Made by a program: the position numbers and the translations under genes
In this document: one piece after another, positions 19,401 to 49,544 of the stretch
How the letters are laid out: the number at the start of each line of letters is the position of its first letter
Numbering within the stretch: position 1 is the first letter of the stretch
Notes under the pieces: generated by a model
What the model saw: only the letters and a program-made list of their open reading frames with translations
Told to the model about the DNA's origin: nothing
Database searches by the model: none
Source of the DNA: Owenia fusiformis
Lineage: Eukaryota > Annelida > Polychaeta > Sabellida > Oweniidae
Reading direction: 5' to 3'
Length of the DNA stretch: 64,000 nucleotides
NCBI GenBank assembly: GCA_903813345.2
Contig: CAIIXF020000001.1
Location: 4,402,001 to 4,466,000 of the forward strand

Positions 19401-22400
19401 ATGTCCATCAGATCAGGTGCACGAACCCAGAGCAGGCTCTCTGAGATATACACTGAGGATTTTGAGTCTGAACCCAGCGGGTCAAAATCACCTGTTAGCT
19501 CTGTGAGTGACCGCACTATGACAGAAGTTGATGAGACAGTTAGCGTTACATCCAGTGTGACGTTGCCTGATACTGGCAGTCCTCGCCCTGGAACGAAGAT
19601 GTCTGAATACACAGATGAGTTTCACTCTGATATCAGTGAAAGTGTTGCGTCTAATTCTGATAAACATACCAGTTATTCTCAATCGAGTTATTCATCATCT
19701 TCGCTGTCAAAGAGTGAGAGGTTAGTTTTTATAGATATTTTTTGTATTTTATTGTTTATTATTAGTCTTGAAATACATTTTATTTCATATTTGTGAAACA
19801 TTGTATAAATGGAATTAATATGTAATATGTATGAGATTTATATATAAATGTAAATGTGGTCCTCATTTAATTTGATAAAATTCATCCAATGAACAAAAAA
19901 CGTTTCCTTTCAACCCTCTTTCAACTTGTGGAAAAGAAAAAATCACAAAGGGACATATTTGTATGTATGATTTATGTGGTAGCTGCTCAAGATCAGTGAT
20001 AGCCAGATAGGTTTATAGTGATAGGTTTTGACTAAATACTATAGGTTCAACATTTTGAGAAAATTGAAAGAAAACATTCTGTGTTAACAAAACCACTGTA
20101 TCTATAGCCAGAAAGTAATCATAGTGAAAGATATTACTGTCTAAAATCACTTACCATACCTCACATGGACCCCTTCTCATTAATTGTATTCATTGGTGCG
20201 CTATTATTCACCCTGTGTTTTGTTTTATTATCAAACATCAAGTAATTTGATTCTAATTTGCAAAAATCAGTTTTGGAAATGTTCATATTTTACAGAACTC
20301 CTCCAAAGAAAAGAAAAGATGAAAAGGAGACTTCTAAGAAGAAGAAAGCTGCTAAATCACGTACAGTTGAGGTACAAACAGGGGCAGATATTGCATTATC
20401 TTACCAATGGGATCCCACCCAGGGGCAGTCAGCGTACATGGGGGACAGATATGGTCTGCAGTATGTAGATCCCACCCCTATAGCCAGACAGGCTGTCAAT
20501 GCCGATGCATTAGAAGGTAGGTCATTTATATGTGACTGGGTGTATAAGGTCTGTGGTTGGCAAAAATGAAAACAACTAGAAGTATTTAAAATGTACAAAA
20601 CCATATTTTCATGAAATAAGTCTCTGTATTCCATACCTACTGAGGTTTTAGGTATAAAACAAGATATATAGTGTATCTAGGGGGTTGTCGCCAAGGCCCG
20701 GGTCTGGGATGGATTATACGCTGTATCCATCCAGGTCCCGCTCCTGAAAAGCGAACTCAGTTTATGTTTTACTCAATTTACAAAATAAAGATTATATTTC
20801 AAATATTATGCTGTAAATTTTAAATTTTAAATCAATTCATTGATCTGCCCCAGCAATAAACTTTATGCCAGTTAATTTGAAAAAAAAAAACCTTTTACTA
20901 TTGCTCTCGATTAAAAACAATTTTTCACCGTTTGTATGGGTTTTTCAAATATTTTGTTAAAATTTTGCAAAGTGCAACAAATTGCACTAAAACGCCATTT
21001 CTAGATGTGAACCAATCGAAATTGTGTATTCCGAGATCTTATTTTTAAATATGGTGATATCATGAAATTATGACCTGAACTGAACAGGCTTCAATTTTTC
21101 CTAAACAGTCATAATTTGCAATACTAGGGTATAACTACCTTAATTAGCCATCCCTTTTTTAGCAAACTGATTTTGGAAATTTCACTGCTCTGAAAATCCA
21201 AGAGTCATAGGAAAACTTGAATTCAGCAGACAACATCTGGAAAATATCGATCAAATCATATTTGTAAAAACCACGAAATTATCCATACAATGAGTTAGGG
21301 AGAGAGAAACAGATCAAATATATTGATTTTGTTTTAGAAAAATTATCATTGAGAAGGGTATTCCCCTTGGTTTCTGATTCTATCTCATCAAACTTGATGT
21401 TATTTATTTATATCGATTATCTATTGTAAGGTCTGAAGAGGTCATGTCCAGAAACTTCAAGTCATAAAATTTGCTATTGTTTCATTCTAGGTACGTGAAC
21501 TTCAAATATGAAGGTCACAATTTAAAAATGATAAGCCTATGTATGTAAGTGCTGTAGATTCAATTTTTTATCAAATGATTTGATTCAAGAATGTGGCCTT
21601 TTAATTGAAATTGATTACAGCTAACATGTTAACAAGACAATGCATGTACTCTGTACAATATGTTCTTTCACTCGAGTCTGAAATATAGACAATTTTTATT
21701 TATTTATTTTATTAAAATATCTAGAGTTTCGAAATTCACTGTAACTGACTGTCAAAAATTCTAGAGATGCTAATATTTTAAAAGCATACTTAAAGTTAAC
21801 CTTTTCAAGACAAGTGGTTTCACATCTTTACTCTCCGAGACATTAATGGATCAAGACATTAAGAAGTACATGCACAAGTGGAATCTGAACAACAGAGTAA
21901 CTTAAAGTGTAATACCATTTAGAATCAATATAAAATAATTGTGCCAATGATCAAGAAATTAATATCTATGAATATTTGTTTTTCAGAGCAGTGAAATTAA
22001 AAAAAAAAGTTACTAATTAAACACTTTTATGGTTAATAAAATTATAAGTAGAGGTTAGAGACACCTGGGAACAATTTTCTTTATTTTTAGGTGCTAAAAT
22101 TACTTGAATAATCTTAGTTATGAAATCACTACACGTTGTATGTCCTTTTCATTAGATATTGCATTTTGATATATATACCCTCTTTGGCTTTTTGAAAGAG
22201 ACCCTCTCAATATTTGGCATTTTAGCCATGGAGCCAATACACCAGATGCGAGTAGAAATAATCTTGATTTACTTCATTAAAAATTAAAAATTCTGTCAAA
22301 ATGGTGTCATATTTCGAATCTACATGTAAAATTACATCTAGAAATGTGGTTTTGAAAAGAGATTATCAACTTTGAAAATTTAATTTTCTATGAAAATGTG

Positions 22401-25400
22401 ACTTCTAGGTCGGGGAGATTCCCCGTTGACCCCATGTTGTAAAATCACAAAAAGTGAAATATCTTTCCTTGTGTTGGGCAGGTAATATTTTCTTTTAGTG
22501 GACATATTTTAATTTGTATAACTATCAGATACATATGGGTAATATGAAAAGTGGACCACTAAAACTGGTAATTATTCAAGTTTAAGGGAACTTTGTAATA
22601 CCCTGCCATGTTACTTCCCCCGAATCAGCCACCTGGTGGAGAAAGTGGTAACTACCCACTCGCATCTGAGTTATTTTGGAATGTAATGGCCATATTGAGG
22701 AAGTGATGAGCTTAATATCTTTCTTGCTAATTCTGTGGTATTGAATTTCTTAGTTTTTCTGACCTTTTCTTGAACTCTGTATTATTACTTGTTCTATTGA
22801 CTAGAATCCTAATGCCACGTTTTTTGTCATACATATTTTTCTTTTTTGGGACTTCAGTATCGATTTTATGATTAATGTACAACTAGGTCCAGTTTCGAAT
22901 GATGACATTATCAGTTAAGATAATTTATTGGGGTTTAGGTGTATATATTCTTTACATATTATACCTTGTACTCTCTTTAATTAGTTAAGGATCCCACCAA
23001 ATGAAGTTATAAGATGGATAAAGTGAAACTGTCCATCTGTCTGTCAGTCAGTTTTAGACGTAACCAAAAGCTTTAAGACTACTACCACATGAAATCTCCT
23101 GTTCAAGACCAAGAATTTAGCATGCTCATAATGCATTGTGTGTGTACCACACTATTATTGTTACCTTATATAGTTTTATATATATTTTTGTATGTTTAGT
23201 TTAGTTGGTGTTTTTTGTAGTTTACCATAGTTCTGACTAATGTAATCATGTTATGATACTATATGTTAGTAAAAGTTATAATAAGACCTCAATGCTAAAC
23301 AATTGTGAAAAAGTTTTGCCTGTGAAATATGAATGTACTTTTCCATTTGAACAAATAGCGTCTTCGAAAATATTTTTTGAACCCAAAGATGCACGGCCTT
23401 AGCCCCAGCATTCAGAAATCCCCAAGTGGGTGTACCTCGAGGGGTTCACTGTATATAAAACTCGACGGGGGTCCTAGGCTGAATCCTCAGATATCAATTT
23501 ATTCCCATACCAAAATGTCAAATTTGAATGTGTTCCCATACCAACCGATATAGTGCCCAAAAGCCATCCAAAATGCCCAAATATGAAACCAATGCCATAC
23601 CAAATGTCAAGATATAGGACCAATGCCATACCAATGCCATGACTGGTCCAAAGTAGAATATTTCCTGGGGGAAAAGCTATTTATTTAAACTGAAGAAGGT
23701 CCCAAGAAGAAGGCGATCTTTGAGGAAAACGAACCAAAACAACCTCATATTAGGATATGTGTAACTACTAGACTAATTCCATACCATAATTGTGAGATAA
23801 CATATTTTCCATGACCATTCTCATACCAGAAAGTTGAAAAATCTGACCATTTCCATCTCTCAAAAGTTTAATGAGGGGGCATTCTCATACCACATCCTAA
23901 AATTTGGGTCCATTGCCATACCAAATGTCCAAAAAGGTACCCCATGTGCGCCGAGGATCCCCGTCAAGGTTTATATACAGTGAACCCCCCGGGGGGTGTA
24001 CCAACTCAAAATATAGCCCTACGCCCATGGATAGTAGATCACAAAACAACTTTTTTTGTTGAGATATATCCAAATTGCCATTTCCAAGTTGATTTGAAAG
24101 TAAAGTTTTATTATACTTTGAAAATGCGCTTTATTGTTGGCATCCTATGTTTGGTGGCCTTGGGTAGTCGTCACATAAAGCTTGACATTAAAATTCTTTG
24201 AGAACTGCTGATCCCTTCAACTTGAAATTTTACAGATGCAAGAGCAGACTAGTGTGACGATCTGATTAGGTTTTGGGCATACTGTGTAAATTACATCGTG
24301 GTCATTTTGCTCTTCAAAGTGTAATATTTTATCGCTGTTTGTCTTGTTAGAAAATGAAATTATAACAAATAGTAAATCTAGATTATATCTGAGGATTTTT
24401 ATTCAATTAAAATATATAATAATGTAAATTACTATAATTTAATATAAATTAGTGTAATTTAATATAAATTAGTTAAGTTTAATATAAATTAGTAAATAAT
24501 TTATACAATTAGTATAATAGAAAAAAGTATAATCGTGAATAATATTATAATATTAATATCAACAATATTCATATAATACCTATAATGATGTACATTTATT
24601 AGTATATTCTAAACTATTTGATTATCAAATGAGCATTATAATACATTACATTGATAATTATAAAATGAATGAAATTTCATACAGCATATATTTCCAGTAT
24701 ATTTGTGTTAATAAATAATTAACTGTGTATATATATATGTATAAAACTCCATGTTTATTTTATACATCTGCATAGAATACAAATTATCTATTTATTTACA
24801 TTTCTATATATATGTTATATTAACATACAGAATTATCTAATAATTAAATTATAAGTGTTCATAAATAGTGTTCATTATAAGTGTTCATAAATAGTGTTCA
24901 TTATAAGTGTTCATAGTGTTATATTATATTGATACAGATAAAACAACTATAAGTGTTCATAAAAAACTGATATGTTACAAGCTGACAATCTATCATCAAA
25001 TACTAGATGATAGAAAGATCATATTTTAGATGAATACCATCTACTTAATATTCTATTGACGATACTGTCAATGTGTTTTAAATATAGACCTAAGTCTTAT
25101 TTGTTTCCCATCTCAGTAAACAAGATCTCATGGAAATAAGCAACTTTCTTTGTGTCTCTAAGGATGATATAATCGCGATTGCGTCGCTGAGCTATATCAA
25201 CAATATCTCTGTACTCGACTGACATCACATCTCTCGTCACGTGTCTGCCTAGGACAACTTCTTGGTGTCTCAGCTCTAAGTCGATGTTACACATCAGGCT
25301 GTATAATTTTTTCTCGATGGTCTCGACTTCCGTCTTGAACTCTCCATACTCCTTTGTGATTTCATCCAGGCGGACTTGTTCCATATGTACGGCCGCAAGT

Positions 25401-28400
25401 GAGAGGTTACGGTAGGCATCTACTAGAGATTCACTCACCTATAAGTGAAGAATTAAGTAACTGATTATTACATAATACATCAATATTATATATTACATAA
25501 TAATGATAGCCTCGGAAGCTATACTTTCAACATATAGATGATTACAATAGATAAAGCAAACACATTATCATAAAAACCCAAATTTGGTCAGTTACTGTAG
25601 TTAGTTTTAAGTCAAAAGTCCTTTTTTAGGAATTTTTTCAAGATGTAAAAGATACAATAGAAATACATATTATTGTATGGTTTTGGCCAATAAATGGTCG
25701 TAACTGAACTTTGGTTTAGCCATATAATATGATCAATAATATTTATGTGCATGTGGAACTTTTACTGAATCATTTGTCTCAGTTACTCTAGCTCACGTGA
25801 GAGCTAGCAATAGTTTCTGGTGATTTTTTATTTTATTTAATGCTTGTAGCCTGCAAAGTGAGCTCATGGTTTTCTGATATACTAAATGTAGTCTTAATAA
25901 AGGATGATTGGTTTTCTCCTGAATCAATTATTGCTGGAGGCTGTATCTAATTTAATTGTCAGAAAATGACATATAACAAGGATGTTTTACTTACCGGTTT
26001 TGAAGAATAGAATGCAATATTCTCGGCAGAAGTGATGACATTGGGCATTCCAGCAAGATTAAATCCTTCTAAATTTTCTGGGTAGGTGGGGTCCATGAAT
26101 CTCTTTGACACCTAGAATGATATAGATATTGTACTGTAAAATAAGTCATGCTGACTTAAGCATGGGCTTAAGCATAGTCTAGCTGCAAGCCATTGTGGCC
26201 CACCAATTAATTACACAATACCACCACTGGAGGGGGGGGAGTCTAGACTTGAAGCAAGACTAACTGAAAACTGATGGATGGAATGTTTTTATCCTATCCT
26301 ATTCCCCCCCCCCCCTTCTGATTCAAAAGTTAATCATGTGGTGTTTATATTTTATTATGCCATTTTTATTACAATTTATTTTATTGTTATTACAATTTAT
26401 TTCATTGTTTTTATCTCACTTAGAAATAAGGATTTTTGTTGAAATGTTCACTTTATTTACCTTGTTTTTTCATAATTTCTACTCTCAGACTTTTTAGGAA
26501 ATTGTTGCATTTATGTTTTCTTAACCTTGCCCTTTGATACTATAGCAGTACATGCCGAGTACATTTTGGCAAAGTGTTTGTTCAAGGGGATATTGACCTA
26601 GGTTCTAGCCTATAGCATTGAAATATTTCATATCACGTGACAAAACAAACTCCATATAAAGCTTTCAATGAAATTCTGAGAAATCCAAATATAAGCAGTT
26701 CTGAGAAATCTACTGTATCTGAATAAAAAATCGGTCAAATCATTATAAAATATTATTTTATGTCTCCCTTTGCTAAAATATACTTTTGCAATCTATTGTG
26801 CATTAAATTTTTAACAGTCGAGCTACTGATTTATTTAAAATTGAAAGAGAAATGAACACCAGGTATCTTTGTGAAGTAAAAGGCTCATGATCAAGCAACA
26901 TCCAGTTCTGAGAAATGAAACTTGAAATTGCATTATTGATGAATGACTAAGGGCTTCCACCAGTTTATTGTTAAACAAATCTGTCGATTTATGATGAATC
27001 AATGGAATTCTCTGGTTTTGGAAGCTGGTTAGTTGACTACCCCAATATCAAATTACTTTTTCAATTTTACGATTGTTTTTTTAGCAGTTTTGTAAGTTGA
27101 GATGATTTATGTTCTATTTTTGAACAATTTAGAATAGTTTATTTAAATCTGTAATTTATTTAAATCTTCGAGTATAAGGATAAAGGCATAATTATGAATA
27201 ATATCCATGAAATATTTCTCTTTGGAAAATTAATCTGATTTCACAATTATTTTTCCTCTGTTGTAACAAAGAAATACTTTTTCAGAATTTTTTTTGTTGC
27301 ATTTGGCTCCATTGAATTAAGAACATCAAAAAACAATATTGTACTTACATAAAGGGACATCATATGCTGGGTTGAATCCTTAACTCGAACCGATAGGTTG
27401 CCTAGAACCTTCATTGTTTCCGATATTGGCACGGGTGAAGGAGTTGGAACTCCATCCCATGGGTCTTCAGTCACTGCAGCTAGGCTATCTCCACATGGGT
27501 CTGCCCATGGCAATGGGGTCGTTGGATTTCCCATGACAGGACTGAATGTTAGCATCATCAGTAGCACTGATTCAAAGATACATCTAAGGTTGGCTGAAAA
27601 TGAATTTAATTAGATTGAATTCATTTCATAAAGTAGCAAATAGTGAATTCACAAATGAAACAAGTTCTCTTTCGGGAGATTATTGTATGATTTCAAGCTC
27701 ATGTCCTGAGGCATAGTAACTCATTCCTCATATAAAAAGTTTTTGCTAGAGTTAAAAAGTTAATTGCTAGAGTTAAAAAAAGTTAAAAATAAGAAATTAA
27801 TTTTTCAATATTTTTATAAGTCTTACCTTTGAGTTGCATATTTCAAGTCAAATTGTGAAGTTGTTATAATTCTCTGTAGATTTCCTTCTTGTTGAAGTGA
27901 ATTCAGTTGTTGTTGTTTAAGTCTCAAAATTGTGAATGAAAATTACAGAAACATACCTCATTTTATATCATACAGCTTACAGATTTCCTCAGGCTCATTT
28001 TCTGATGGTCATCTTTTTCCAGTTCTTGTTCACCCACACTAGTAACCAGGCACGGAAACTCCAGTTTCAGTTTGTAATGTGTATAGTAATATCACATAAG
28101 TATGTATCACTCAAGGGTTAAATGTCAAGTACTACTCATGTGCCAATCAATACATTAGAGTTCAAATCAATTGTATTAGCTTTTTTGATAACCTTGTCAA
28201 TTTAACTGTCAATTATTTAAAATTCCTCTTACATGTAGATCAAAGGTATAAATATGTTTCATTTCTGGGAATTGAGGGATGGATTAGTCGATATATACAT
28301 AGATACATATACTATACCAAAATTGAACAGGATTTTGATTTATTATAGAGGATTTTATTTATTTAAGGCACCTATATGGTCAAATGCTATATTTGGATTC

Positions 28401-31400
28401 TATATTATGTAGGTGTTATACTGAAACAGTCCACTTAAATTTACCTGCAATTAATAAAAGTCATAGTCACCTGAATATGGTATTGAAACTGAGAAATCAA
28501 TTAATTAATTATTATTATTATTTAATCTTTGTATTATGGCTCTCATATATGATTATTTCTTATAATATATGTGAAAAAATCGTTCTCGACACCCGTGTAT
28601 TAGAACTGCTTGGTTATCATTTTATGAACTACATGTAATATGTTTTTAATATGTATTTGTGAAGCAAATCTGTACTTAGAGCCTATGGGATCGACCAGGA
28701 TTCAGTCCATTGGTCCTTTTATATCTTCTTGTTAGATTATGTAAATTCATTTTTTTTGCAATTGATCTCAAAGGATGATTTGATTTTTTGAAAACTGATT
28801 CTGGAGTTAGATCAGTCCTGTAAAGAAAGGATGAACAGTTGCATGGAAAAAATCATACCTGAACTTTTGAGACCTTATATAAATGTAATTAGAAATGGTA
28901 AAAAGTGTTTAAAGCTGTGACTATTATCTACTCTGTCTTTGATTCCTTACTTTCTCAACTTTACTAAGTTAAATGTCTTGGCTGTATTGACTATGTGTGG
29001 TCCTTATGTCTTTTTTACAAGAAACATATAATTTGTAGGAGCCTTTTTAGAGTTCCTGATAATTCGCAAAACAAGTAAAAACAGGCAAAATTCCTTAAAA
29101 CAACAGGCAATTTCGATAATTGAAAAAATCACTTGTCTACATCTTCTGAGACCACTGCAGTTTGAGTATAGAATGTTGTTTTGGTTAATGTCTTGTTATG
29201 GAAGAAATTGCTATGGTTTCCAACTTTTTGTGGATGGTGTTTGACATTCGACAGTCATCATTCAGCATCTGGCATCAAATGGCAGGTATTTTGCGTGTTA
29301 ATGCCTTATTTTCCTAATGTTGCCATTTGTTCATTTTCCTTGTGATTGTACATACTAGAGTCCCCCTCCCTTGAATAAACATAGCATATAGTACCATAAT
29401 ATGATTAAGCATCTTCCATGTAAAATGTATTCTGATTCAGAGATTACATCTGGAATATCAAGGATATTTCATTTTTCCATTTTGATTCTGAATAATCGTT
29501 ATTTTGTTTACATGACAATAAAATAAATATATGATGTCCTCATTCACGAGGAAGCCCTTAAGGTAGATGACAATGAATGACCCCTCAATAAAAAGGGATG
29601 TACTATCAGCATGAATATATATATTTTTCTTGAATTTTAATCAGTAAAAAATCTTGAGTCTGTAAAAGGATGTAAAGTAAATATATATCTTCATTTACAA
29701 AGAATCTCTTTAGTAAATGACAATGAGTGACCCCTCAATAAAAAGGGATGTACTATCATAAATGTATCCACAATGTCACTTTTTACGAGTAGGATTTCTT
29801 TGAATTATAAGGGACGAGAACCTGATATTTCCTTGTCAAATCAAGTGATCTTATTATTATTTCAGTGTGTATGAAAATACTGCAATCATAATTCAGTCAT
29901 CATTCTGAATGATGACTATCTTAAGAAATAAGATATGATAGCAACACAAATTAAGTTTTAGTAAATATGATCTAAGGGACCTGTACTCTAAAATAGAATA
30001 TTTCATTGCTAAAACATCCTGTATGGAGTAATACTAACAGATTAGTTCTTTTTTGTCTAACCCCCCCCCCCTCCCCCCTAAAGGCAGTGTCTAATGCTAA
30101 TATCAACCCATTCCATGTGGGAACACCCCAAGTATCATATATGAATATGAGATATATTGGTATTTGGCATGGGTGACATATTAGTCACAGGTATGTCTCT
30201 TTAATGATCTGAAATTGAAAAATATATTTCTTTGAGTAATATGCACGTTGACACACTTTATGTAAGTTCATCACAAAACTAGAAGATGAAATATTCTAGA
30301 TTTGTCAGGATCTTGATTTGAAATTGAAAAAAAGATATTTCATTGAGTAATATGCTCATTGAGACACTTTATGTATATTTATTTATTAACTTAAGAAACA
30401 GCAGATAACAGAAGTAAAAAATTGTAGATTTATCAAGATATGAAATCTGAAACAGCATTGTCAAGATGTTAGGTAGACACAATTTGGGATTTTGGACACT
30501 ATCAATTAAATGAGTACATAATCCATATACTCATTCTTCCTTGTGAACAAGGAGTGCCCAAAGTTATCCATACCTTCAGGCTGCATCCACCTACACAAAA
30601 AGCACACTCAAAACACATTGTACAGATATTGGGAGAAACTTATATTTTATATGAATGAAAAAGAAAATGAAAATAAGCAATGAATCAATAATTTGAGATG
30701 AAGGAATCACAGAGACTGAATCAGGCTTTACAGTATATGCCAGCAGCTAGAACAAATATATATACAAGATAGTTTACATTGTAGATTCTTCAATTCCTTT
30801 GTTTTAAAAATTATTAATTGTTTTAATAAATCCATTAGGATTAGTACTTATGAGTGATAAGGCACATCTTTGTTAAAATAAAGGAAAAATTATGAAAATG
30901 AAATAAGTTATAGATTTCAATTTCCTTTATGATAAGGAAATATTAGTAAAGCTGAATTGAATTGAAAATTTGAAAATAATTGAAGTAAACAAAAAGGGGT
31001 TTAGTTGTTAAATGAATTCTAGGTGATAAAAATAACAAAATATTGCTTCTGGGACAAGATCAAACAACTAAATTACATATTCTTTATCCTACCTGTTTTG
31101 TATTTTAACAATCAACACAGGTATATTTCAGCAGATATCGGATAAATTCATAAAAATACTTTTTCGATTGCTAAAATTATCGATTATAAAACCGGAAGTG
31201 CGTTCTGTGACGTCCGCGTGTGGATATTTCAATTATTCAGATTTTGCTGTGGATTCGACTCAAAAATTCACTTTCTCATAATAAAGATGAGCTGAAAGTT
31301 GACTTGAACACCTTTCAATCCCCAGTGTAAATATCGCTTTTCAAGGTTCAATAGGCGACTTTGAATGGACTTTCATGCATAGTTTGAAAATAGAATCACC

Positions 31401-32973
31401 AGAGAAGGTTTTAAACCATGAAATCGACTCTAAAGCCTGAGAAAATGTTTTTTAACCATTTTGTCAGCTGTATGTTACAGTATGCCTTTAAATCCTTAAT
31501 TACAGTCTGTTTGCTCTCACAACTGACCCCTGATTACCATACCAATTTCTAAGATCGCCCTATTTTATATACCAGAGAAAGAAAATCCATAGAATTTTGA
31601 ACAATGTACTGTTTTTTAACCAACATTATATTCGAGGTAATGAACTGGTTATACATAGGTGAACTACCTTGCAAGCAAATAATTACATGAAAATTAATAT
31701 TTTCACCTGAAAGTTAGCAGGTGCTTATTGTCAATGCAAGGATTTCTTTCAAGCTTTGAATTTTAAAAGACATATTTTTTAAGTATTTTTGTGTTAATTA
31801 GAATTAAAATCACATATTCGGGTTAGACCTACACAGCATCTTTAATTTTGATAAAAAAAGCTTCGTAATTTAGGATTTTTGAGGTACAGTATATGTGTTA
31901 CTGTTAACCCTGCTGTAACAGGAACCATCGCCTTTTAAGTAAATATGTTGTCTTATATTTTTCAGCTATGACATCCTACAACCCGGCAATGTTAGCCTTG
32001 AATGAGATGATGAGAGAACAGTTAAGGTTGACTCAGCAATTTATGCAGTCACAAAAATATCTCCATCAATCATTGGCACCATCTATTGACCAGAGTGACT
32101 ACAAATACACCACACTAGAAGATACTAAACAGGTTTGGAAGATTTTTCTTTAGAAATTTATTTATGTCATGAATATAATCTTCCTACATGTATAAAGAAG
32201 AAAGCTCAACATTTGTTAACTTTTGTAATAAAAAAAACACAAAGGGTAACACTTGGAAAACAAATCGATTTAATCTATAGACACTTTGAAAATAAAGCTA
32301 ACGAGAAAATTCAGCACAAAACCCAAAATAAGTTATTTTTGTAAAGATTTAGTTTAAAGATGAATGATTCATAGGATATATCCATTTTTAAGATGAAAAA
32401 GTCAAAATTTCTTTAAGTAGTACACAATTGAAATAGTTTGATAAAAAGATATACATTGTAAGTATTATTGGTGAATTTTGCACTAAACTTGTATAAATGT
32501 ACCTCTTTTGAAGGTGCAAAAGTTCAAATTTCCCTCCATTTTCCATAATTTGGAAATCCGCAGTCAATAAATTTTTGATCGCTCATGACACCCCTGGAAG
32601 TGATTTATCTTTAAAATGTTAAATTTTACATGGGATGATTTTTAACATATATCATATGATATTCATCTTTGAACTTTGGTATTGTTTTTTGGCCCACCTT
32701 GTATGTTTATATATAAGGACATACCACTATTGCAAAGTCTAAATAGACGCCTCAACTTCAGAGAACCATCACTCTAATCAATGATCATTTCCACTGGCCT
32801 ATAAAGTGGAAATGGTTTATTGAAGGGCGCACATTAGGTTGATGAGCTTCCTCACGATGTAAATGTTGCATTGTGTTTTGTAGTATATACGACGTGAGAG
32901 GAAAAAGAGGAAGAAACTGACGTTTGAAGAGGCATTGAAGATGGTTCAACAGGAGATGGATGATAGATATTGA
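7496..32973 (+). CDS. C19orf44: C19orf44-like protein, DUF4614 C-terminus (8 coding exons, 810 aa)
   Basis: Exons: 7496-7627, 10148-10949, 11378-11547, 11985-12084, 18970-19720, 20296-20516, 31966-32132, 32884-32973. All splice borders are GT/AG and the phases close to 810 codons plus stop. Assignment rests on the C-terminus (residues about 652-810): YVDPTPIA, then ADALEA, LTQQF-x6-YLHQSL, YTTLEDTKQYIRR and LTFEEAL, which follow the human C19orf44/DUF4614 order. The N-terminal two thirds are disordered and Ser/Asp-rich. They carry four basic-hydrophobic short motifs of the NKFMKKK / NKFLKKK / NRFLKK type (about residues 88, 173, 224, 290) like the SRFLKKK seen in the human protein, plus YTEDFES and YTDEFHS motifs. 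The molecular role is not established. The 6.9 kb fourth and 11.4 kb sixth introns hold most of the repeats listed here, and the sixth hosts an antisense gene. Confidence 0.88.
7720..8105. mobile_element. MITE with about 125-bp terminal inverted repeats
   Basis: The left arm starts GTCCATTTCACTGTTT and the right arm is its inverted partner ending AGTGAAATGGAC. The arms pair over roughly 125 bp each, including the shared inner string GTACATGAATG. The interior (about 7835-7980) encodes nothing. It lies in intron 1 of the C19orf44 homologue. Superfamily not assigned; no clear target-site duplication was identified. Confidence 0.8.
7831..8305 (+). repeat. Diverged direct repeat, two copies of about 140 bp
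   Basis: The stretch 7831-7970 (inside the preceding MITE) and 8168-8305 share an ordered series of matches: TTGGATT, GTGGCCTCT versus GTGACCTCT, TTGGATGCTTC versus TTGATGCTCC, ATTACAAGAGG and TTATTGCAC. The second copy abuts the next MITE. Old tandem duplication is the simplest reading. Confidence 0.6.
8310..8757. mobile_element. MITE with GTTTTGCGTCC-type inverted repeats
   Basis: The left end reads TTAGGCTGTAAGAATTAG and the right end is the inverted TAAGGCCATAAGAATTAG. Pairing continues through TTCTYTGTTTTGCGTCC, CATGATTT and AAACAAACAC on both sides (about 75-80 bp per arm). The interior is non-coding. Non-autonomous DNA transposon, superfamily not assigned. Confidence 0.75.
9248..9288. 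repeat. Perfect GC-rich palindrome in AT-rich intron
   Basis: A 14-bp perfect stem (TTAAGCGCCCCCCG and its complement) extends inward by a TTTT/AAAA pairing past one mismatch, leaving a 3-nt loop. In such AT-rich surroundings this is a conspicuous cruciform or RNA hairpin. No terminator or RNA gene assignment is made. Confidence 0.8.
11271..11436 (+). repeat. Tandem duplication of the exon 3 acceptor and first 58 nt
   Basis: The 64-bp stretch at 11271-11334 (tttcag plus the start of exon 3) recurs almost identically at 11372-11435, where it opens the functional exon 3 of the C19orf44 homologue. The upstream copy has an intact acceptor but no donor follows. Reading through it in the correct phase meets a stop, so it is a decoy acceptor. 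Confidence 0.85.
13130..16940. mobile_element. Head-to-head inverted pair of a repeat carrying old transposon-like coding relics
   Basis: Left arm about 13130-14700 and right arm about 15130-16940 are mirror images. Shared strings include ATCAATTGGTG, AGACAGGGCCCTTTTT and CATGTTGCTATGC-type RFX-box-like motifs. The centre (about 14700-15130) is unpaired. Outward-facing broken coding relics lie next to the centre: one has a DSNVLVIALA stretch, another a Cys-rich tail (CNCKGNC, CKCHG). I have seen similar Cys-rich ends on unnamed invertebrate transposon-associated proteins but cannot name the family. The outer kilobase of each arm is non-coding. The reading frames are broken in several places; treated as a fossil. 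Confidence 0.7.
17266..18563. mobile_element. Fold-back (palindromic) DNA element interrupted by a Helitron
   Basis: Ends are CACTGGTGATCCACTCG and, inverted, CACTAGTGATCCACTCG, continuing into ATTACGCTGGTTAC. The candidate 5-bp target duplication CACAA lies at 17261-17265 and 18564-18568. Beyond the termini the two halves (17266-17328 plus 18125-18282, and 18310-18563) pair along nearly their whole length, so the element is a large hairpin. The left half is split by the Helitron at 17329-18124. No transposase is present. The superfamily is uncertain; 5-bp duplication and CAC ends are weakly reminiscent of Transib-type elements. Confidence 0.75.
17329..18124 (+). mobile_element. Non-autonomous Helitron (copy A), pearl-like
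   Basis: It starts TCCCATCAAACGAAG after an A and ends CTGG before a T, as Helitrons do. A hairpin ACGC-TTTG-GCGT (18099-18110) lies exactly 10 nt before the CTGG. A GTTCGATGGGA near the 3' end is the inverted partner of the 5' terminus, an asymmetric inverted repeat as in Helitron2/Helentron-type elements. It contains a (CCGT)n microsatellite and about three roughly 135-bp internal repeats rich in AAATGGCGGCCATTTT. No Rep/helicase coding is present. Confidence 0.8.
20703..20730. repeat. Short imperfect palindrome GGGATGGAT...ATCCATCC
   Basis: GGATGGAT is followed after about 10 nt by its complement ATCCATCC, inside a locally GC-rich patch (about 20680-20750) in the sixth C19orf44 intron. 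No function is assigned. The remaining 20517-22240 stretch of that intron shows no gene. Confidence 0.45.
22243..22668. mobile_element. MITE with CAGATGCGAGT termini (intact copy)
   Basis: Ends CAGATGCGAGTAG and inverted CAGATGCGAGTGG. The 426-bp interior has no coding capacity. A second copy in opposite orientation is split at 47664-47957 and 53137-53272. The two match over essentially their full lengths, which defines the family and lets the insertion at 47.9 kb be reconstructed. Confidence 0.8.
23422..24008. mobile_element. MITE with about 50-bp GC-rich inverted termini
   Basis: The left arm has GGGGTTCACTGTATATAAA followed by a GACGGGGGTCCT-type string. The right arm is the inverted GGGGTTCACTGTATATAAA with GACGGGGATCCT. 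The interior repeats a CCATACCAAATGTC-type unit several times. Non-coding. Target duplication not certain. Confidence 0.75.
24400..24960 (+). repeat. AT-rich short tandem repeats
   Basis: At about 24430-24495 an AATTTAATATAAATTAGT-type unit repeats four times. At about 24855-24915 a 31-nt unit containing ATAAGTGTTCATAAATAG repeats two to three times. This is low-complexity DNA directly downstream of the nested minus-strand gene, so it may lie in or after its 3' UTR. Confidence 0.7.
25097..27839 (-). CDS. Putative secreted four-helix cytokine-like protein (IL-6/LIF/CNTF class), 4 exons, 238 aa
   Basis: Exons (minus): 27827-27839, 27349-27593, 25995-26111, 25097-25438. All have GT/AG borders, with intron phases 1-0-0. 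Residues 1-26 (MQLKANLRCIFESVLL...) form a signal peptide. The mature part has a Pro-rich lead with C37, then predicted amphipathic helices at about 61-88 (A), 126-150 (B), 152-180 (C) and 198-235 (D). A long A-B loop contains DPTYP and GMPNV, and N-glycosylation sequons lie at N70 and N136. The second mature cysteine, C175, is in helix C, so a C37-C175 bond would mirror the lead-to-helix-C bond known in LIF. The intron falling in phase 0 right after HMMSLY matches where I recall the LIF gene splitting helix A from its loop; the tiny first exon is also LIF-like. If right, it would signal through a gp130-type receptor. Sequence identity is low, so the family call is inference. The gene lies antisense within a C19orf44 intron. 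The gene model itself is well supported. Confidence 0.75.
29170..29345 (+). repeat. Dispersed repeat, copy 1 (partner at about 44840-45000)
   Basis: Shares with the later copy the ordered strings ATTGCTATGGT, TTTTTGTGGA-x-GGTGTT, AAATGGCAGGT, TTTTGC and GTGAATGCCTT / GTTAATGCCTT. No ends or coding capacity are recognised. Confidence 0.55.
29572..29758 (+). repeat. Local direct duplication of about 45 bp
   Basis: ATGACAATGARTGACCCC followed by TCAATAAAAAGGGATGTAC occurs at about 29567-29612 and again at about 29714-29756. A second local duplication (TGAAATTGAAAAA through GACACACTTTATGTA-type text) occurs at about 30210-30265 and 30317-30375. Both lie in the large C19orf44 intron and are non-coding. 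Confidence 0.7.
31185..31220. promoter_or_regulatory. Candidate internal promoter: ETS and CRE sites
   Basis: ACCGGAAGTG at 31191-31200 is an ETS-family site and TGACGTC at 31208-31214 is a CRE core, in a small CpG-containing island within an otherwise AT-rich intron. It could drive an alternative 5' end for the C19orf44 terminal exons or, read on minus, a distal 5' exon for the cytokine-like gene 3.4 kb away. Direction is not resolved. Confidence 0.4.
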
Positions 32974-35731
32974 AAACTCTATTCACTAGTGCCATCTTTA
33001 TGAAAACATTAAATACAGATTTGTATTACTTGAAAATATGTCATTGGAACGTTGACTTTGCATTGATAAATGTATGACCAGCCAACCAGGAGTTCAATGA
33101 TGGTAGAGGTAATGAAGAATTTCAGTTTATCTTCATTATTTATATCATTAGATTCGGACTTCAATATATGGACACTAAAATCACTTTTTGGAGGTCAATT
33201 TTTTTCATGGAGAATGACAGGGTCAATGTATTGGTGATGGGAGGGGGGGGGGTTAAAGTCCATCATATTCTCTTATTGCATGTTGATTTCTAATAGGAAG
33301 GGACTTTTAATTTGATGAAATTGAAAAAAGTTCAATATCATATTGAAGGAGGGATGTTATATATTACATTTTGGACAGATATAAATATATTGGCCTATTC
33401 TTTTGAAAATGTTGGTCCTAGAATATTCTCTGAGTTCCAAAATGTTGCTCAACAACTGTGTCACACAACAAGATGAGCTGTCTTCTTGTAGCAGATTTTA
33501 TGTGATATTTGGTTTCCTCTATTAAGACCCTTTTTATATGATATTATTCATACCATGTGCAGTTAGGTCTTACTTTTTGAAATATGTAACTAGTATTTAT
33601 CTAACAACTTATTGGCAATATGAGTTCCTTGCTTTTATAATCAAGGCACCAATCTGCGTTAATTGTATTATAATCAGTGATGCAACCAAGACACTTGTGT
33701 TCCTGTAAATAGATAATTATTACAAAGGCACCTTGTATCTTCAGAATAGTGTCTTGGTTACAAAAGGGAGGAAATCAAACTGACAAAATATGTGTATGTA
33801 TTTTGTCATGACATGAACAGTAATTACACATTTTCCATCTGCTTTCATTTATGGATAAAATCACATAAGAAATGGGTTAAGATTGAGAAAATGAAATATC
33901 TGCCAAAATCTGCTTCTGGAAAGGCAAATAATCTTGTTACAAAGACATATAGTGTCTTGGCAACACATTGAGAGTTGGTGAATAGAGTGATTGACATTTA
34001 GCATGACTTTTAGTCCAGAAAGAAGAATACTCAACTAATTGAATTGAAAATTGCATCAATGTTTAAACCTGTCTTGTGTGTATATGCCAAGTATATTAGG
34101 GTATCGTCAATAAATTATAACAGGATAACGCATGCTGGCATGCTTTGAATTTAAGCTTGGTGTAAAATTTAGATGACCTTTTTGGTTATTAATGAATTTA
34201 GTTTCCTCATACTGATGATAAAAACAAAATTATCTGTCTTATTTATTGTTTATTATATTACTACATGTTTATGAGCTTCATATGGAATGTATGTAAAATA
34301 ATTGGTGCTATCAGATGTATTAAACTCTCTCAGGGAATAAAACATGAAAAAACATTTAAAAGAGATGATGGATTGTTTTGACATTTGTGTTGGCTGTTAG
34401 AAGTCCAATTTTCAATCCAATTTTCATTCCAATTGTTATATTCTGGAAGTGTGTAGGCATGATATTGTTTTATACAGGGTGTGATACTCATACTAGAAGC
34501 TTCTTTGAGGCATAGAGAGTCATAGCATTTTTACCTAAGGCTATGTAATAATAACACTCAATGACTATTGTGTGTTTACTAAGTTAAACTCTTGAATTAT
34601 TCCCCCTCGGCTTAATTCCACAATTCCATAGATCACTAATGTCACAATCGGAGCCAAGTTGATACCAAATGAGATAGAATTGTGGAAAAAACTAGAATTG
34701 ATGTTGATAAAGAGCATGAGGTTGAACCAGTAGCAGACTGCTGTATATACTACAACACCCAAGCAGACCATGCCACACAGCGAGGTTCATGGGAGGTACC
34801 AGCAGGATTAGAGACTGAAAAAATGAAGCTATTTCTGGTATTAGATAATTTTACATGCAAGTGACCATTGCATGTCAAAGGTGAGTGAACTTTGGACTGA
34901 CAGAATTCAGATCCTATGAATATTCTCTTAAATGTCAATTGGAAGTTTGGTGACAGACGGAAATTCAAATTAATTTGCATGAAAGGAAGATACAAACTGA
35001 AATATTGAGAGTTTGTATTGTGTAAGGGTTTGTACTGTTACCTAACAAAAACAAAGTTGTTCACTTATTTAATTTCCAGTTATTAGAAAGCAATAATTAA
35101 GTTATAATTGAAGGTTAAACTAACCTCAATATCCCTTTACTTTATTACAAAATTAAACATCTAATTAATTAATTGTTATATATTTCACTACTAGTATTTA
35201 ATGTTCATTGACTTTTATTACATTGCCTTGGGTACTATCAGTCTGTCAAACCAATCACTTCAATTTGTTAAACACAGTTGTATTTTAAGTTTACCTAAAA
35301 TTGATCTTACAAAATGCTCAAGATGTATATTAAGTATAAGTAATTTCACCTGTTTGATAATTGTATAAGAACTGTAGAGTTGGTGTCTTAAATGTAACAG
35401 CTTTAAGTTCCATATTGTGGATTACATGTTACCTTTGTATGAAATATGTATTGGAATCCCCCTTTGGCTAAACTTTGACCAACATGGCAATAGGGTCTTT
35501 TTGGGGCACATTGAGGGAGTCTTCTAGAATTTATACATGATGTGTCTATCAATGGCTCTTCTCAGTGGATTATCGCTGCATTTTTGGTAATTTTAACTTC
35601 AACTGATCATTGCAGTGTTCTAAAAGTTTCAACCAATGAACAATTTATTTCCACACAAAAATTGGTTGGTTTTGCTTTCAGACACAATTTCACAAGTTAA
35701 CAATAGAAGACCATATTGCATTGTTTTTCAG
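32974..35731 (+). other. C19orf44 3' UTR, then intergenic or intronic DNA
   Basis: No convincing coding exon. An AATAAA at 34336-34341 is a plausible polyadenylation signal for the C19orf44 homologue. Poly-G at about 33240 is simple sequence. At 35730-35731 an acceptor-like TTGTTTTTCAG precedes the open frame of the next gene, so at least one 5' exon of that gene probably lies in this stretch or upstream, but I could not identify it. Confidence 0.45.
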
Positions 35732-35784
35732 GCTGTTGCAGCTTCGCATTGCTCCACATAACGACATCCTGCCAAAAATACCCA

Positions 35785-38700
35785 ATGGGCCAAGCCAGGA
35801 GTCACATGACCAAAAACAATCGAGAGCATTTGAAAGCTAGACACAAGCGTTCAGTTGATAATTTACATACACAGCCAGTAACCACCAGTGTTGATTTTGG
35901 GTCACAGACTGATTTATATATTAATCCAGAGATCAGAGGGTCACCAAGGTCAGCTGATAGCACACCAGATATTGTTGGCCACACGAGTGCTACACAATTG
36001 AAACAACGATTGTTGAAAGAGATTTATAAAACACCATGGACGCTTGAGGGCAGACGTAAACTTCTGAAACATATCATAGCTGTCTATCATCCAGAGTGGC
36101 AGCTCAGACATAGTCGTTATCGTAAAACAAGAAAAATGACCAATAGACGTCTTCTTAAGTATGATACGTTCGATAAGTTGAGTCGCTCGCAGTCTTATGA
36201 ACATCTGTTTGATGAACAGTTGGAGAATTATGATAAAGACAATTACAGCTCTAATAATCTCTTCAGATCTAAATCAAGTGAGAATCTTCCCGAGGATGTT
36301 ATTATTGTGACTGAGAGACCACAACATTTAGTTGGTCCACCTAAGCCAAAGAGACTTGCACAGAAAGATAGACACTGGCTGGATTGCGTTGATGAATATT
36401 CAAAAACATATGGAGGTGCAAAAGTGAAGACTTCTCCATTGAACTCTTCTTCATCAAGCAAAGTAATAACCACTAGGCATATTACAAGTGATAATCCATC
36501 ACCTGGTAAAACATCTTTGAAACAAGGACTCATAAAGGTAACCCCTGTGAATAAATTACAACCAACTAGACCTTTAACAAAGCCCAACAAGACAGAGAAG
36601 GTTACATCATATTTGACACTTTCACCTCAACAGCCAAAGAGGTTAGCAGTAAACCCAGTGTTACCTGCTAGATCTGGTAAGAATCAGAGAATAACATCTA
36701 GAATATACACTTCAAATATGTCTACTAATCCAAACAGTGAACAAGTCCAGAATGATGACAGCTCTACTCCATATGCCACTATTGATCATAGCATGTTTAA
36801 GCAACAGGGCCAAGGGAGTTCTGTGCAGCATGTTGGGAACGATAATAATATTGACAATAAGGTTATTTATTCAACAGTGAACAAATCTGGTGAATTACGT
36901 GATAAAGTTGAAATTGAGGAAAAGACTGTCACTGAAGTTGCAGATCAGACTCTATTTGCGATGGACAAAAAAGCATTTGCACTAATGCAAGAAGCCCATG
37001 ATATAGCTGATGGAAAGAAGAAATTCTTTTTTGATCAAGTTGATAAAGTTGAAAATGGTTCGTCTACCCAAAATGAAATGGACATGGTGGTCACTGACAG
37101 TCAAGGTCACACAAAGAGACTCCGATATTCTGACAATAAAGCCCCAGCTGATAACAATGAATCTCATTCTAACTCTTATCATAGTGTCACAAAAGTCACT
37201 CAGAACCATGTTGATTTGGATGCAAAGAATGAAGTTGATCTGACCCCTCCTACACCCCCAAGTCCTGGCAGTGGAAAGATGTCCCCTAAGGTGAGCTTCT
37301 CTCCCAGTATTGAGATCATTCCTAGAATGGGGGAGGAAGAAGCATTTGCTAAGTCACTAGAACAACAGATTTCGCAGCAAAGAGGCAGCATAGAAGATCT
37401 TGCTACAGCAATGGATGACCAAGACATCACCATTGAGGAAGAAGAGGAGGTAACACAACATAAGGCTACTATTGAACAACCAGAGAGTGTCACCAACTGG
37501 TCTATTTATCCACATAATGGTTCAATCAGCACGCCAAGTGTCTCTCTGAAGTCATTTGGTTCTCAGGAATCACTGAATTCTACTAATGCTATTGATGGCT
37601 CAGACTCCATAAGAGATGACTCATCGTCTTCTCAGAAGTACAACTACATGGAAGTGAAAGGTTCAAGTAGCAATGTGAGGGAAGTTTCAAGATCACCAGA
37701 GCCCAAGTTACCCCCTTTGCCACGTGTAGAGGACTCAAAATCGCCAGAACCTGGGGTTTCTCCTCTGCCACAGTCACCTCATGTACATTCCCCACAACGA
37801 ATTGCTTCCCCATCTAGTGCACCTATCAGGTCATCACCACAGCATGTTGAACCCACTGGGCAATCCCTTACTGTACCACGACGTGATTTATCCCCAGTCA
37901 ACACATCCTGGGTTGAGCCTAGCCCCCACGTGTCAACCGGAGCGAGTACATTGACGGCAAGCACAGTGACGTACAACCAACATGACTCATGTAATGATAA
38001 CGTAAATGTACATATATCTCAGCTGTCACCATCAACCGCTAATCAGGCCCTCGAGGCAACATATTCTGAAGTAAAGCATGCAAAGAAAGTGCCTATCAAA
38101 GTTGAAGTGACTAAAAATAAATTCAATCGATCTACTATCAATGCAAGTGTATCTCCTTACAACTTGAACGATGTAGTTCAACCCAAATCAACATCAGTCA
38201 GCACTGTCCGACATGAACCTGTGTTTTCCAAACCTTATATTCAAAATAACAAAGTTGACGTTGAGATCAAACACGTTGGTTCCCCACAGAAAGTTAAAAC
38301 AGAAACAGTCAGCATGGCTGTTAGTGATGAACTTGAATTGAAGTTTAAAAAACGCAGAGGAGCTGATCGGGAGCATTTTAATAAACCAATAGAGACTGTT
38401 GAGATTTCCTCACCACCTGTTCAAAGTACAAGCACCTCGTCTTTAAGTTCGACAAGTGGAGCTCATGATAAAACATATGTCACCGAGACACTGAATAAAA
38501 CATATGTCGCTGAACCATGTGTTACGTATGAGTTTAGGCCGAGTGTACATACCCAGACGCACCACGACGATCAAGATATCAACGTTAACACGCAACATCA
38601 GCATATTAATAGTAGCAATACAGAAGAAAGAAACCTCCACAGGAGTGAAATACAGTTTCAACCAAATAAAGCGTCAATTGCCTCTCAGTCGAGAACAATA

Positions 38701-39930
38701 GAATCTATCAAGTCTCAAAAAGAACCATATAGACGTCCAGGAGAAGTGATAATTGAGACTCATTGTACGAGTGGTAACGTTAAAGCTGTCAATGAAAGCG
38801 GTGATAAACTAACGCGTATTAACCCAACATTTGCTGTTGGGGATGACGAGCCTTATGGTATTCATGTAACTGATGTTAAAACTGAACGCACCGTTAAAGA
38901 ACCCCGACCCCCAACTGATTCTCCTAAACTGGATCAACTGAAAGAACTTCACAAACAAATAACGCTTTTATCAGGCGGGGCAGCCCATGCGCAAGTATCA
39001 TCTCAAACTGACCCTTCTCACGAAGCTCGCATTGACATTCAGCCACGTCCACTTCTTGATGGACATCCACGCCAACATAACCCTCTCGTAGAACAGCTAG
39101 AAGAGATAATGGCCGAGATCGAGTTGAAAAGGAAACAACGTGAACTTACAGAGCAATCACGTAAAAGACCGGATATGGCCGAACGGTTCCACATTGAAAA
39201 TCAACTGAAGAAGGATTACGGTGGAACTGATAGTGAGCCAAAGAAATCACAAAAGTTGGTCGTGCTAAGATCATCAGAAGACTCGACGTCTGATTTAGTC
39301 CCTGCTCAGCCAGAGGGGGAAATTTCGCATGATTCGTTTGCTGAAGAAGAAACTAATGTCACATACCAATCGGTGACACAGCAAGATGTTGGGCAAAAAT
39401 CAGGAAAGACGAAGGATATGATGAAAGTCACAGAGGTGAAGGTTGAAAAGGTGTACAAGACTGTTGAAATTTTACCAACAGGGGAACAACTAGATGCCAT
39501 TGAAGGAAGAAAAAGTACAATTTCTCAAGAAATGTTAGAATACGTTAACCAGAAACAAGCAGAAGCTGCGGCCCAAAGGCGATCTCAAACATCATCATAC
39601 AGTGAATCGTCCGAGTTCAATAAATACAATGGTGCAGACGACACCACTAGAGGGCGAACTGACTCTAACCACAACCATCAAGAAATAGACGAGGACTTAC
39701 TGAGGGAAATATTACGACTTCACAAAGAAAAGTCATCTAGGTTCAAACCAAGAGAATACGATGAAGATGAGCAGTCTATTTACCTCAGCGACGAAGAGCC
39801 TGATGAAGTAGAAATTGAAGGAGTGATTTATAAACGCATGCACCCTGACTTGCGCATGTTGACGGCAGAGGAATTAGAGGCGTACGTCAGGCAATATATG
39901 TATGAACATACGAAAAGTACAAGTTTGTAG
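35785..39930 (+). CDS. Large, mostly disordered protein of unknown family (1381 aa as read)
   Basis: Not recognised. A single 4.1 kb exon, open from a likely acceptor at 35731 to the stop at 39930. The first internal ATG (35785) gives MGQARS, which fits the MG-x3-S N-myristoylation pattern, so it is taken as start; an upstream exon could extend it. In order: a basic segment (about residues 90-140, TPWTLEGRRKLLKHI and RKTRKMTNRRLLKY); long Ser/Thr/Pro-rich disorder; KVSF at 502-505, an RVxF-type PP1-docking motif; several P-P-L-P and SPEP clusters; a charged coiled-coil-like stretch at about 1099-1150 (LVEQLEEIMAEIELKRKQ); and an acidic C-terminal block ending in a compact conserved-looking stretch (GVIYKRMHPDLRML and EELEAYVRQY). 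The last residues, STSL, fit a class I PDZ ligand. These features suggest a membrane-tethered cortical scaffold, but only as inference. A polyadenylation signal lies at 40080-40085. Confidence 0.8.
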   Translation: MGQARSHMTKNNREHLKARHKRSVDNLHTQPVTTSVDFGSQTDLYINPEIRGSPRSADSTPDIVGHTSATQLKQRLLKEIYKTPWTLEGRRKLLKHIIAVYHPEWQLRHSRYRKTRKMTNRRLLKYDTFDKLSRSQSYEHLFDEQLENYDKDNYSSNNLFRSKSSENLPEDVIIVTERPQHLVGPPKPKRLAQKDRHWLDCVDEYSKTYGGAKVKTSPLNSSSSSKVITTRHITSDNPSPGKTSLKQGLIKVTPVNKLQPTRPLTKPNKTEKVTSYLTLSPQQPKRLAVNPVLPARSGKNQRITSRIYTSNMSTNPNSEQVQNDDSSTPYATIDHSMFKQQGQGSSVQHVGNDNNIDNKVIYSTVNKSGELRDKVEIEEKTVTEVADQTLFAMDKKAFALMQEAHDIADGKKKFFFDQVDKVENGSSTQNEMDMVVTDSQGHTKRLRYSDNKAPADNNESHSNSYHSVTKVTQNHVDLDAKNEVDLTPPTPPSPGSGKMSPKVSFSPSIEIIPRMGEEEAFAKSLEQQISQQRGSIEDLATAMDDQDITIEEEEEVTQHKATIEQPESVTNWSIYPHNGSISTPSVSLKSFGSQESLNSTNAIDGSDSIRDDSSSSQKYNYMEVKGSSSNVREVSRSPEPKLPPLPRVEDSKSPEPGVSPLPQSPHVHSPQRIASPSSAPIRSSPQHVEPTGQSLTVPRRDLSPVNTSWVEPSPHVSTGASTLTASTVTYNQHDSCNDNVNVHISQLSPSTANQALEATYSEVKHAKKVPIKVEVTKNKFNRSTINASVSPYNLNDVVQPKSTSVSTVRHEPVFSKPYIQNNKVDVEIKHVGSPQKVKTETVSMAVSDELELKFKKRRGADREHFNKPIETVEISSPPVQSTSTSSLSSTSGAHDKTYVTETLNKTYVAEPCVTYEFRPSVHTQTHHDDQDINVNTQHQHINSSNTEERNLHRSEIQFQPNKASIASQSRTIESIKSQKEPYRRPGEVIIETHCTSGNVKAVNESGDKLTRINPTFAVGDDEPYGIHVTDVKTERTVKEPRPPTDSPKLDQLKELHKQITLLSGGAAHAQVSSQTDPSHEARIDIQPRPLLDGHPRQHNPLVEQLEEIMAEIELKRKQRELTEQSRKRPDMAERFHIENQLKKDYGGTDSEPKKSQKLVVLRSSEDSTSDLVPAQPEGEISHDSFAEEETNVTYQSVTQQDVGQKSGKTKDMMKVTEVKVEKVYKTVEILPTGEQLDAIEGRKSTISQEMLEYVNQKQAEAAAQRRSQTSSYSESSEFNKYNGADDTTRGRTDSNHNHQEIDEDLLREILRLHKEKSSRFKPREYDEDEQSIYLSDEEPDEVEIEGVIYKRMHPDLRMLTAEELEAYVRQYMYEHTKSTSL

Positions 39931-47521: not shown

Positions 47522-49544
47522 TTAGGCTAATCTAACAAGTAATTATGTAAACTTTGTATTGGTGAATATACCATAACCTTGCCTATGGTAATGGTTTTTA
47601 TCGGAAATGTTACCAAAAAAACCCATAGAACTTCGAACATAGAATCATGGGCTTTCAATTACTCAGATGCGAATAGTTAGTTACCAATTTCGCCACCAGG
47701 TGGCTGATTCGGGGGAAATAACATGGCAGGGTATTGCAAAATTCCCTTAAACTTGAGTATACCGATCAGTTTTAGTGGTACACTTTTCACATTACCCCTT
47801 TGTATCTGATAGTTATACAAATTAAAAAATGTCCAGTAAAAGAAAATAGTATCTGCCCAACACAAGAAAAGATATTTCACTTTTTGTGATTTTACAACAT
47901 GGGCTCTATGGGGAATCTCCCCGACCTAAAAGTCACATTTTCAAAAATCAAAATTTTTGTCAACAACCACACTACTCCCCTACTGCCATCAGTGGTGGGC
48001 ATCCCTCAGGGGTCCGTGTTGTCTCCGCTTCTCTGTAATCTCTACACGGCAGACTCCATGGACAACATAGGGTCGGAGAAGGCTGGCTTTGCAGATGACA
48101 ACACAATATGGGCATGTGGAGCTGACTTGAAAGAGATAGAGAAACTCATCAACACGGACTTGAATCAATTAACCAACAAATGGTGCAAAAGATGGAACAT
48201 GGAGATCGCCCCTGAAAAAACCGAGGTAATGGTCTTCAGTCCACCTGGTATCACTAGCCCCGATATTAACATCTTTATCGACGGCCGGAAACTCCAGGTG
48301 GTGTCCCACAAGAAGATTCTTGGATGCACCATAGATAACGAACTTAAATTTAATCTACACATCGAAAATAAGAAAAAATCTGCATTCGGTGCTCTTGCGG
48401 GCATAAACAATTTCACTTCCAGCAAATCGGGCTGTAGCCAAGAGGTATTCACCATGCTGTACAAAGCGTTGGTGATACCGCACTTCGAAACCAGCATTAG
48501 TGCTCTGGCTGCAGTTACCGAGAAAGCTGTTTCTGCCTATGCACCAGTCCAGAGGGCAGCACTACTTAGAGCAACCGGATGCCTCAACTCAACTAGCACT
48601 GACTCATTAGAAGTACTGGCTGGTGTACTACCGCTTGATATTTTACTAAGAAGCAGGCAGGCTCAAGAGGGTGTGAGAATAGCTACCCACACTGAGTCAG
48701 ACCCCATTGCCAGGGAATTTTTGAGATGGGGTGGGTCATCTCAAACTGAGAAGACCCCCTCCTGCTTTAATATCATAACAGCCAGACTGAGACTTCATAG
48801 ATGCCCCACACAACCTAACAATTATATACAGCACTATTACCATCACCAGGATGTAGACATCTTCCAACCTACGAAGGCAACCATCCATGACGAAGATTTT
48901 GCCAACACAAAGTCCGCCCAAAGTGTTCGGATAAGCTCAGTGCTTAGTGCACAGCCGGACGGTAGGACTATAGTCTTCACAGACGGGTCAGCCTATGGGA
49001 ATCCTGGTCCTTCGGGAGCTGCTGCAGTGGTTTATGTGGGTGGACTTAAATCTACACCTATATGTCTTGAGCAACCAGTCTCCCTCATAGGTAACAACTA
49101 TTATGGGGAAGTGGTAGCAATAAAGATGGCGGTAGAATATCTGACAACCATAAAGACTAGCAGCAACATCCTGCTCTTGTCAGACTGCCAACCCGCTATA
49201 ACAGCATCTTTTATTACTACCAAGTGTAAAAGCATCACAGAGGACATTATTGACACAAGGAAAGCCTGCAAATTGCTATCTTTACAGAACAAAACCTTAG
49301 AAGTCTACTGGGTCCCAGGTCACCAAGGGACAGAAGGGAATGAAGTTGCGGATAAAACTGCCAAGAAAGCAGCATTGGCAGCCAAATCTCTCACTGACTG
49401 TAAAACATCTAAGTCTGTAGCTTATAATAATATCAAATGTAACGCTTTAGAGAAATGGCAAAATAGGTATAACAACTCCACCAAGGTGAACTTTGTTCAG
49501 GAATTAATTCCTAAGGTTAAATTGAAAAGTCCAATTGTAAAGAC

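Follow-up and report, generated by a model that had tools for sequence, protein, structure and literature searches.

Does the genome of an annelid worm encode a ligand of the IL-6/LIF/CNTF class, the ligands of gp130? The question is raised by a gene of the marine worm Owenia fusiformis, here called gene A. It lies in a 64,000-nucleotide stretch of contig CAIIXF020000001.1 (positions 4,402,001 to 4,466,000, forward strand; hereafter the window, whose own numbering is used), and an initial annotation of this stretch proposed that it encodes such a cytokine. We find that gene A is a real, functional four-exon gene, and that it has a paralogue, gene B, elsewhere in the same genome. Our best call is that the two genes make up a family, known so far from Owenia only, whose proteins are secreted and probably helical. 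We put the probability that these proteins are helical-cytokine-like ligands in the broad sense at about 0.4, a figure that includes the unlikely case of a true relationship with IL-6, LIF and CNTF.

The evidence that gene A exists is straightforward. Re-read from the sequence, it consists of four exons on the minus strand (27839-25097, Table 1) that together form 717 nt, or 238 amino acids and a stop. All three introns are GT-AG, with phases 1, 0 and 0, so the clean model that was first proposed stands. Codon usage was scored with a model trained on other frames of the window. In frame, exons 2 and 4 reach +0.181 and +0.229 bits per codon, compared with a best background value of 0.162 among 96 stop-free segments of at least 38 codons. 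Neither exon 1, whose four codons score -0.164, nor exon 3, which is near neutral (0.032), has a coding signal of its own. A deposited sequence of 185 amino acids, ‘unnamed protein product, partial [Owenia fusiformis]’ (P0001), is identical to residues 17-201 of the predicted protein. P0001 spans both phase-0 junctions, therefore two of the three proposed junctions agree with a deposited protein. Its coverage ends before the C-terminal helix, and exon 1, the first junction and residues 202-238 lie outside it. The published Owenia gene set was built with RNA sequencing, and 31,678 of its 31,903 filtered transcripts are reported to have such support (PMC9977687).

A search of the 498-Mb Owenia genome with the gene A protein gave 11 matches at E<=10. 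Three are exons of gene A itself and three are exons of gene B, which lies on another large contig (C5); the other five were dropped. These five (L008-L012, E 0.395-8.88) are chance or repeat matches, one interrupted by four stops and four scoring identically at different places. The reciprocal search with the gene B protein gave seven matches, three to its own exons, three to gene A and one by chance (E 7.02). Such a search scores the best candidates only, and it is among these that two copies are counted.

Splicing gene B by hand gives exon lengths of 16, 242, 117 and 345 nt, again with phases 1, 0 and 0, and a product of 239 residues that is 50% identical to that of gene A. Exon 3 is 117 nt long in both genes. 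The two mature cysteines are kept in both proteins (C38 and C175 in A, C39 and C175 in B); the number of cysteines and the position of the second are as in the initial annotation, which had placed the first at C37. The two sequons announced there were also located, at N70 and N136, and the latter is conserved in gene B while the former is not. The mature chains begin with an equivalent PTTP. Nonsynonymous differences (pN) between the genes amount to 0.32 overall and 0.22 in exon 4, where 72 of 113 residues are identical, and synonymous differences (pS) are saturated at 0.80. Judged from these comparisons, genes A and B are an old duplication kept under constraint.

Gene B is likewise represented by a deposited protein, P0002, which in exons 2-4 is identical to our hand splicing through to the C-terminus. 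P0001 and P0002 are thus the finding and its paralogue themselves, and both were deposited without a name or family. The first exon of P0002 differs from the proposed 16-nt phase-1 exon and makes the protein 42 residues longer; in this form the signal-like stretch becomes internal. A 16-nt phase-1 exon matching exon 1 of gene A is nevertheless possible in gene B. Alternative first exons could produce both a secreted form and one that is not secreted; otherwise one of the two models is wrong. Because P0002 begins with another first exon, exon 1 of gene B and, by analogy, that of gene A is the least certain part of the models.

What kind of protein do the two genes encode? Judged by eye, the N-terminus is hydrophobic in both, which together with the equivalent PTTP start agrees with the signal peptide proposed earlier; the proteins look secreted. 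Two AlphaFold models were obtained, both too low in confidence to assign a topology. In the P0001 model, which is without the C-terminus, helix A and a loop are followed by a single long, merged helix in the place expected for B and C. The P0002 model has four main helices, of which the first two are separated by a long loop and the second and third by a short turn; the loop carries two short helices, and helix D is kinked. In both low-confidence models the A-B loop is some 35-40 residues long (~87-127) and contains short helical pieces. The four amphipathic helix-like blocks described at the outset are therefore plausible at the level of these models, and no confident fold of another kind emerged.

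Neither protein has a significant match in Pfam or NCBIfam. For the gene A protein, Pfam gave 0 families at E<=10, so no strong profile match to another family was found. The sole Pfam match of P0002, DUF999 at E 0.35, was rejected. Matches to sequences in the Protein Data Bank (PDB) were at chance level and none were cytokines: a pilin (8c27, E 0.044), TCP-1 epsilon (E 0.21-0.22), a TRAPP subunit (1.3) and a designed protein (7.4). No third relative was detected in protein searches with gene A (205 candidates, E<=1), with its residues 76-186 (17 candidates, E<=10) or with a two-sequence profile of A and B (2415 candidates, E<=10), nor did a search of viral contigs return one. The search for orthologues that had been suggested therefore gave a paralogue and no relative outside Owenia. 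This is a weak negative, since two of the three protein searches, those with gene A in full and in part, also failed to return P0002, which is present in the same database, is about 49% identical to A and has 13 exact five-residue words in common with it. These searches could easily have missed relatives in other annelids.

The features that make a cytokine worth considering are those of gene and protein architecture. In genes of long-chain class I cytokines the short first coding exon ends in phase 1, and introns of phase 0 follow helix A and the loop. The phases 1, 0, 0 with a very short first exon and separate exons for helix A and loop are seen in both A and B. In LIF and OSM a disulphide joins the N-terminal lead to helix C, and the cysteines of A and B lie in the lead and the third helix, that is in the corresponding places; the bond itself is putative. 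Most members of the LIF/OSM/CNTF/CLCF1/CT-1 group have a signal peptide, CNTF being without one unlike most neuropoietic gp130 ligands. A and B share with the group this signal peptide, the phase-1 then phase-0 introns and the order of the putative elements, in which a long loop joins helix A to helix B and a short turn joins B to C. They differ from LIF in one extra intron and from IL-6 in having no intron before helix D, and from the group as a whole in having no significant sequence or profile similarity to it, no F-x-x-K motif and no visible long C-D loop. Secretion, helical order, cysteine positions and phase pattern are thus consistent with the IL-6 family, and they are not unique to it. 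Phase-0 introns, for example, are unspecific, because teleost type I interferon genes have four of them (PMC4929537).

Two invertebrate proteins can be set beside A and B, in each case by description only. If the cytokine hypothesis held, A and B would, like the insect Unpaired (Upd) proteins, be invertebrate helical ligands of the JAK-STAT pathway. The oyster protein CgIFNLP is reported to be a class II helical-cytokine-like protein of low sequence identity with a helical-cytokine-like fold (PMC9756803). It offers a lophotrochozoan precedent for such low-identity proteins, although it belongs to class II, whereas the hypothesis for A and B concerns class I.

How probable are the different readings? 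The most specific one holds that A and B are true homologues of the gp130 ligands, with an up-up-down-down bundle, a receptor of the Domeless/gp130 type and signalling through JAK-STAT. We regard this as unlikely. Taken alone, gene A has a pairwise likeness to LIF (LYY..PFPNNL with LYV..TYPENL, LVELYR with LVDAYR) that is persuasive on inspection. It was rejected all the same: it is the top result, or close to the top, among 40 tests, the paralogue does not share it, and it is gone when A and B are averaged. The averaged Z is -1.46 for LIF and 1.25 for the best cytokine, CNTF, below the 1.64 of the decoy calmodulin. HHalign against a profile of CNTF, CLCF1, CT-1, LIF and OSM, a comparison close to the HHpred check suggested by the initial annotation, gave a score of 14.7 and a probability of 0.3%, which lies within the shuffled null (12.05 +- 2.25; 8 or more of the 150 nulls exceed it) and provides no significant link. 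The LIF_OSM profile has 0 matches genome-wide, where the control was uninformative. The LIF-like end of exon 2 (HMMSLY, earlier likened to ALFILY) is not kept in gene B, which has RLLSKF in its place. F-x-x-K is the site III motif at the start of helix D in the LIF/CNTF subfamily, and neither A nor B has such an F..K spacing in its last 60 residues. The IL-6-class bundle runs up-up-down-down, so that a long crossover would have to link its parallel helices C and D. Proline is absent from residue 126 to the end, that is over 113 residues in A and 114 in B, while the longest proline-free run in 10 vertebrate long-chain cytokines is at most 73 residues (8 of the 10 are unverified sequences). Given this and the gap of only five residues between C and D in the low-confidence P0002 model, there is no obvious long C-D crossover, although residues ~180-197 could form one. 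That said, a missing pairwise match is weak evidence, since known distant members of the family also fail the test (LIF-IL6, Z -0.33). Our tests, then, gave no positive evidence of IL-6-class homology for gene A, and none of the outcomes that the initial annotation named as refuting it occurred either.

Several results weigh against a cytokine in any sense. None of the Pfam, PDB-sequence, HHalign and shuffle tests links A or B to a cytokine. Putative helix A, the expected site of receptor contacts, has 6 of 27 residues identical between the paralogues. AlphaFold gave a mean predicted local distance difference test (pLDDT) of 50.1 and a predicted template modelling score (pTM) of 0.26 for P0001 alone, and 36.8 and 0.28 for P0002 supplemented by P0001 and by exon 4 of gene A. 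Foldseek, which like structure prediction had been put forward as a check, returned nothing below E 2.2 for the P0002 model and no matches for the P0001 model; the matches at E>=2.2, of which those ranked 3 and 9 are designed cytokine mimetics, were left unused, their source model being of low confidence. An alternative that we hold to be quite possible, if somewhat doubtful, is a secreted helical protein that is particular to the lineage and has no part in signalling, such as a carrier, an immune effector or a component of mucus or tube. Owenia fusiformis is a tube-dwelling worm that secretes its tube. The lack of detected relatives outside Owenia, weak as this negative is, would suit such a protein, as would the charged C-terminal region (hydropathy means down to ~-0.6 in A) and the single long uninterrupted helix of the low-confidence P0001 model. 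It fits less well with the two copies found among the best-scoring genome candidates, and a non-repetitive sequence with a conserved cysteine pair would be less usual for structural polymers. An annotation artefact or pseudogene, finally, is very improbable: P0001 is partial and exons 1 and 3 are without codon bias of their own, yet gene B repeats the exon phases and is under constraint, and the phase-0 junctions recur in the deposited proteins, all of which argues against it.

In the helical-cytokine-like reading, which we prefer, both genes would encode a secreted, roughly 24-kDa helix-rich protein with a signal peptide cleaved near residue 26. The cysteine of the N-terminal lead (C38) would bond that of the third helix (C175), and helix A would be joined by a ~40-residue loop to a B-C helical hairpin and a C-terminal helix D. 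Once outside the cell, this helical bundle would be the ligand of a receptor on the cell surface.

The setting of gene A in the window is as the initial annotation described it, nested antisense in an intron. The host is a DUF4614 (C19orf44-like) gene on the opposite strand. The DUF4614 profile is gapless across two of its exons, therefore the 11.4 kb between them is read as one intron. A donor site is observed at the end of the upstream exon, whose 5′ limit in Table 1 is that of the open frame and not necessarily an exon start.

Table 1. Gene A and the host gene around it, in window positions
Feature	Position	Strand	Size or match	Content
Gene A exon 1	27827..27839	minus	13 nt	MQLK and first base of codon 5; ends in phase 1
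Gene A exon 2	27349..27593	minus	245 nt	Remaining part of the signal peptide (to ~27529), lead with C38 at 27495-27493, helix A (putative); phase-0 end after ...HMMSLY
Gene A exon 3	25995..26111	minus	117 nt	Residues 87-125, putative A-B loop; phase-0 end
Gene A exon 4	25097..25438	minus	342 nt including stop	Putative helices B, C, D; C175 (25291-25289); sequon N136
Host gene, stop-free frame	20246..20516	plus	PF15391, E 1e-10, profile 47-117	3′ part is a DUF4614 (C19orf44-like) exon
Host gene intron	20517..31965	plus	11.4 kb	Contains gene A antisense; profile resumes at 117
Host gene, next DUF4614 exon	31966..32132 (3′ end approximate)	plus	PF15391, E 7.4e-25, profile 117-174	

Near the host gene lies a calreticulin gene (1723-4891, minus strand): PF00262 is matched by three of its frames, all within 3192-4891, and a further frame at 1723-2019 ends in HDEL. 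In human, CALR3 adjoins C19orf44, and the proximity of the two genes in Owenia may be old microsynteny; it offers no clue to a cytokine. Elsewhere on the plus strand there is a single open frame of 1407 amino acids (35707-39930) with no convincing Pfam match (PlyB_C, E 0.0047, below the cut-off), and one of 1111 amino acids (47890-51225) with reverse transcriptase and RNase H domains, apparently a retroelement. Tandem arrays with periods of ~145, 148 and 42 bp occupy 57125-57678, 58976-59540 and 63371-63837.

How does this fit with what is known of the pathway? A survey from 2026 follows JAK and STAT back as far as sponges and IL6R as far as Mollusca, and reports IL6 from vertebrates only (PMC13203501). 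It used BLAST with an identity floor of 30% (PMC13203501), which fast-diverging ligands would escape. The survey also describes the JAK of O. fusiformis as lacking a FERM domain (PMC13203501); unless this is an annotation gap, it would weaken a JAK-linked reading of genes A and B. Among the matches listed in open-licence literature, none describes an IL-6-family ligand from an annelid.

By this account the invertebrate ligands of the pathway are a gap, insects aside. The secreted, probably helical, two-cysteine paralogue pair of Owenia is a concrete candidate for the missing ligand, or else an unnamed secreted family. It is improbable, in our view, that A and B are bona fide annelid class I helical cytokines that share common ancestry with vertebrate IL-6, LIF and CNTF. 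If they were, the ligand side of gp130-type signalling would predate the protostome-deuterostome split, contrary to the vertebrate-only IL6 of the 2026 survey.

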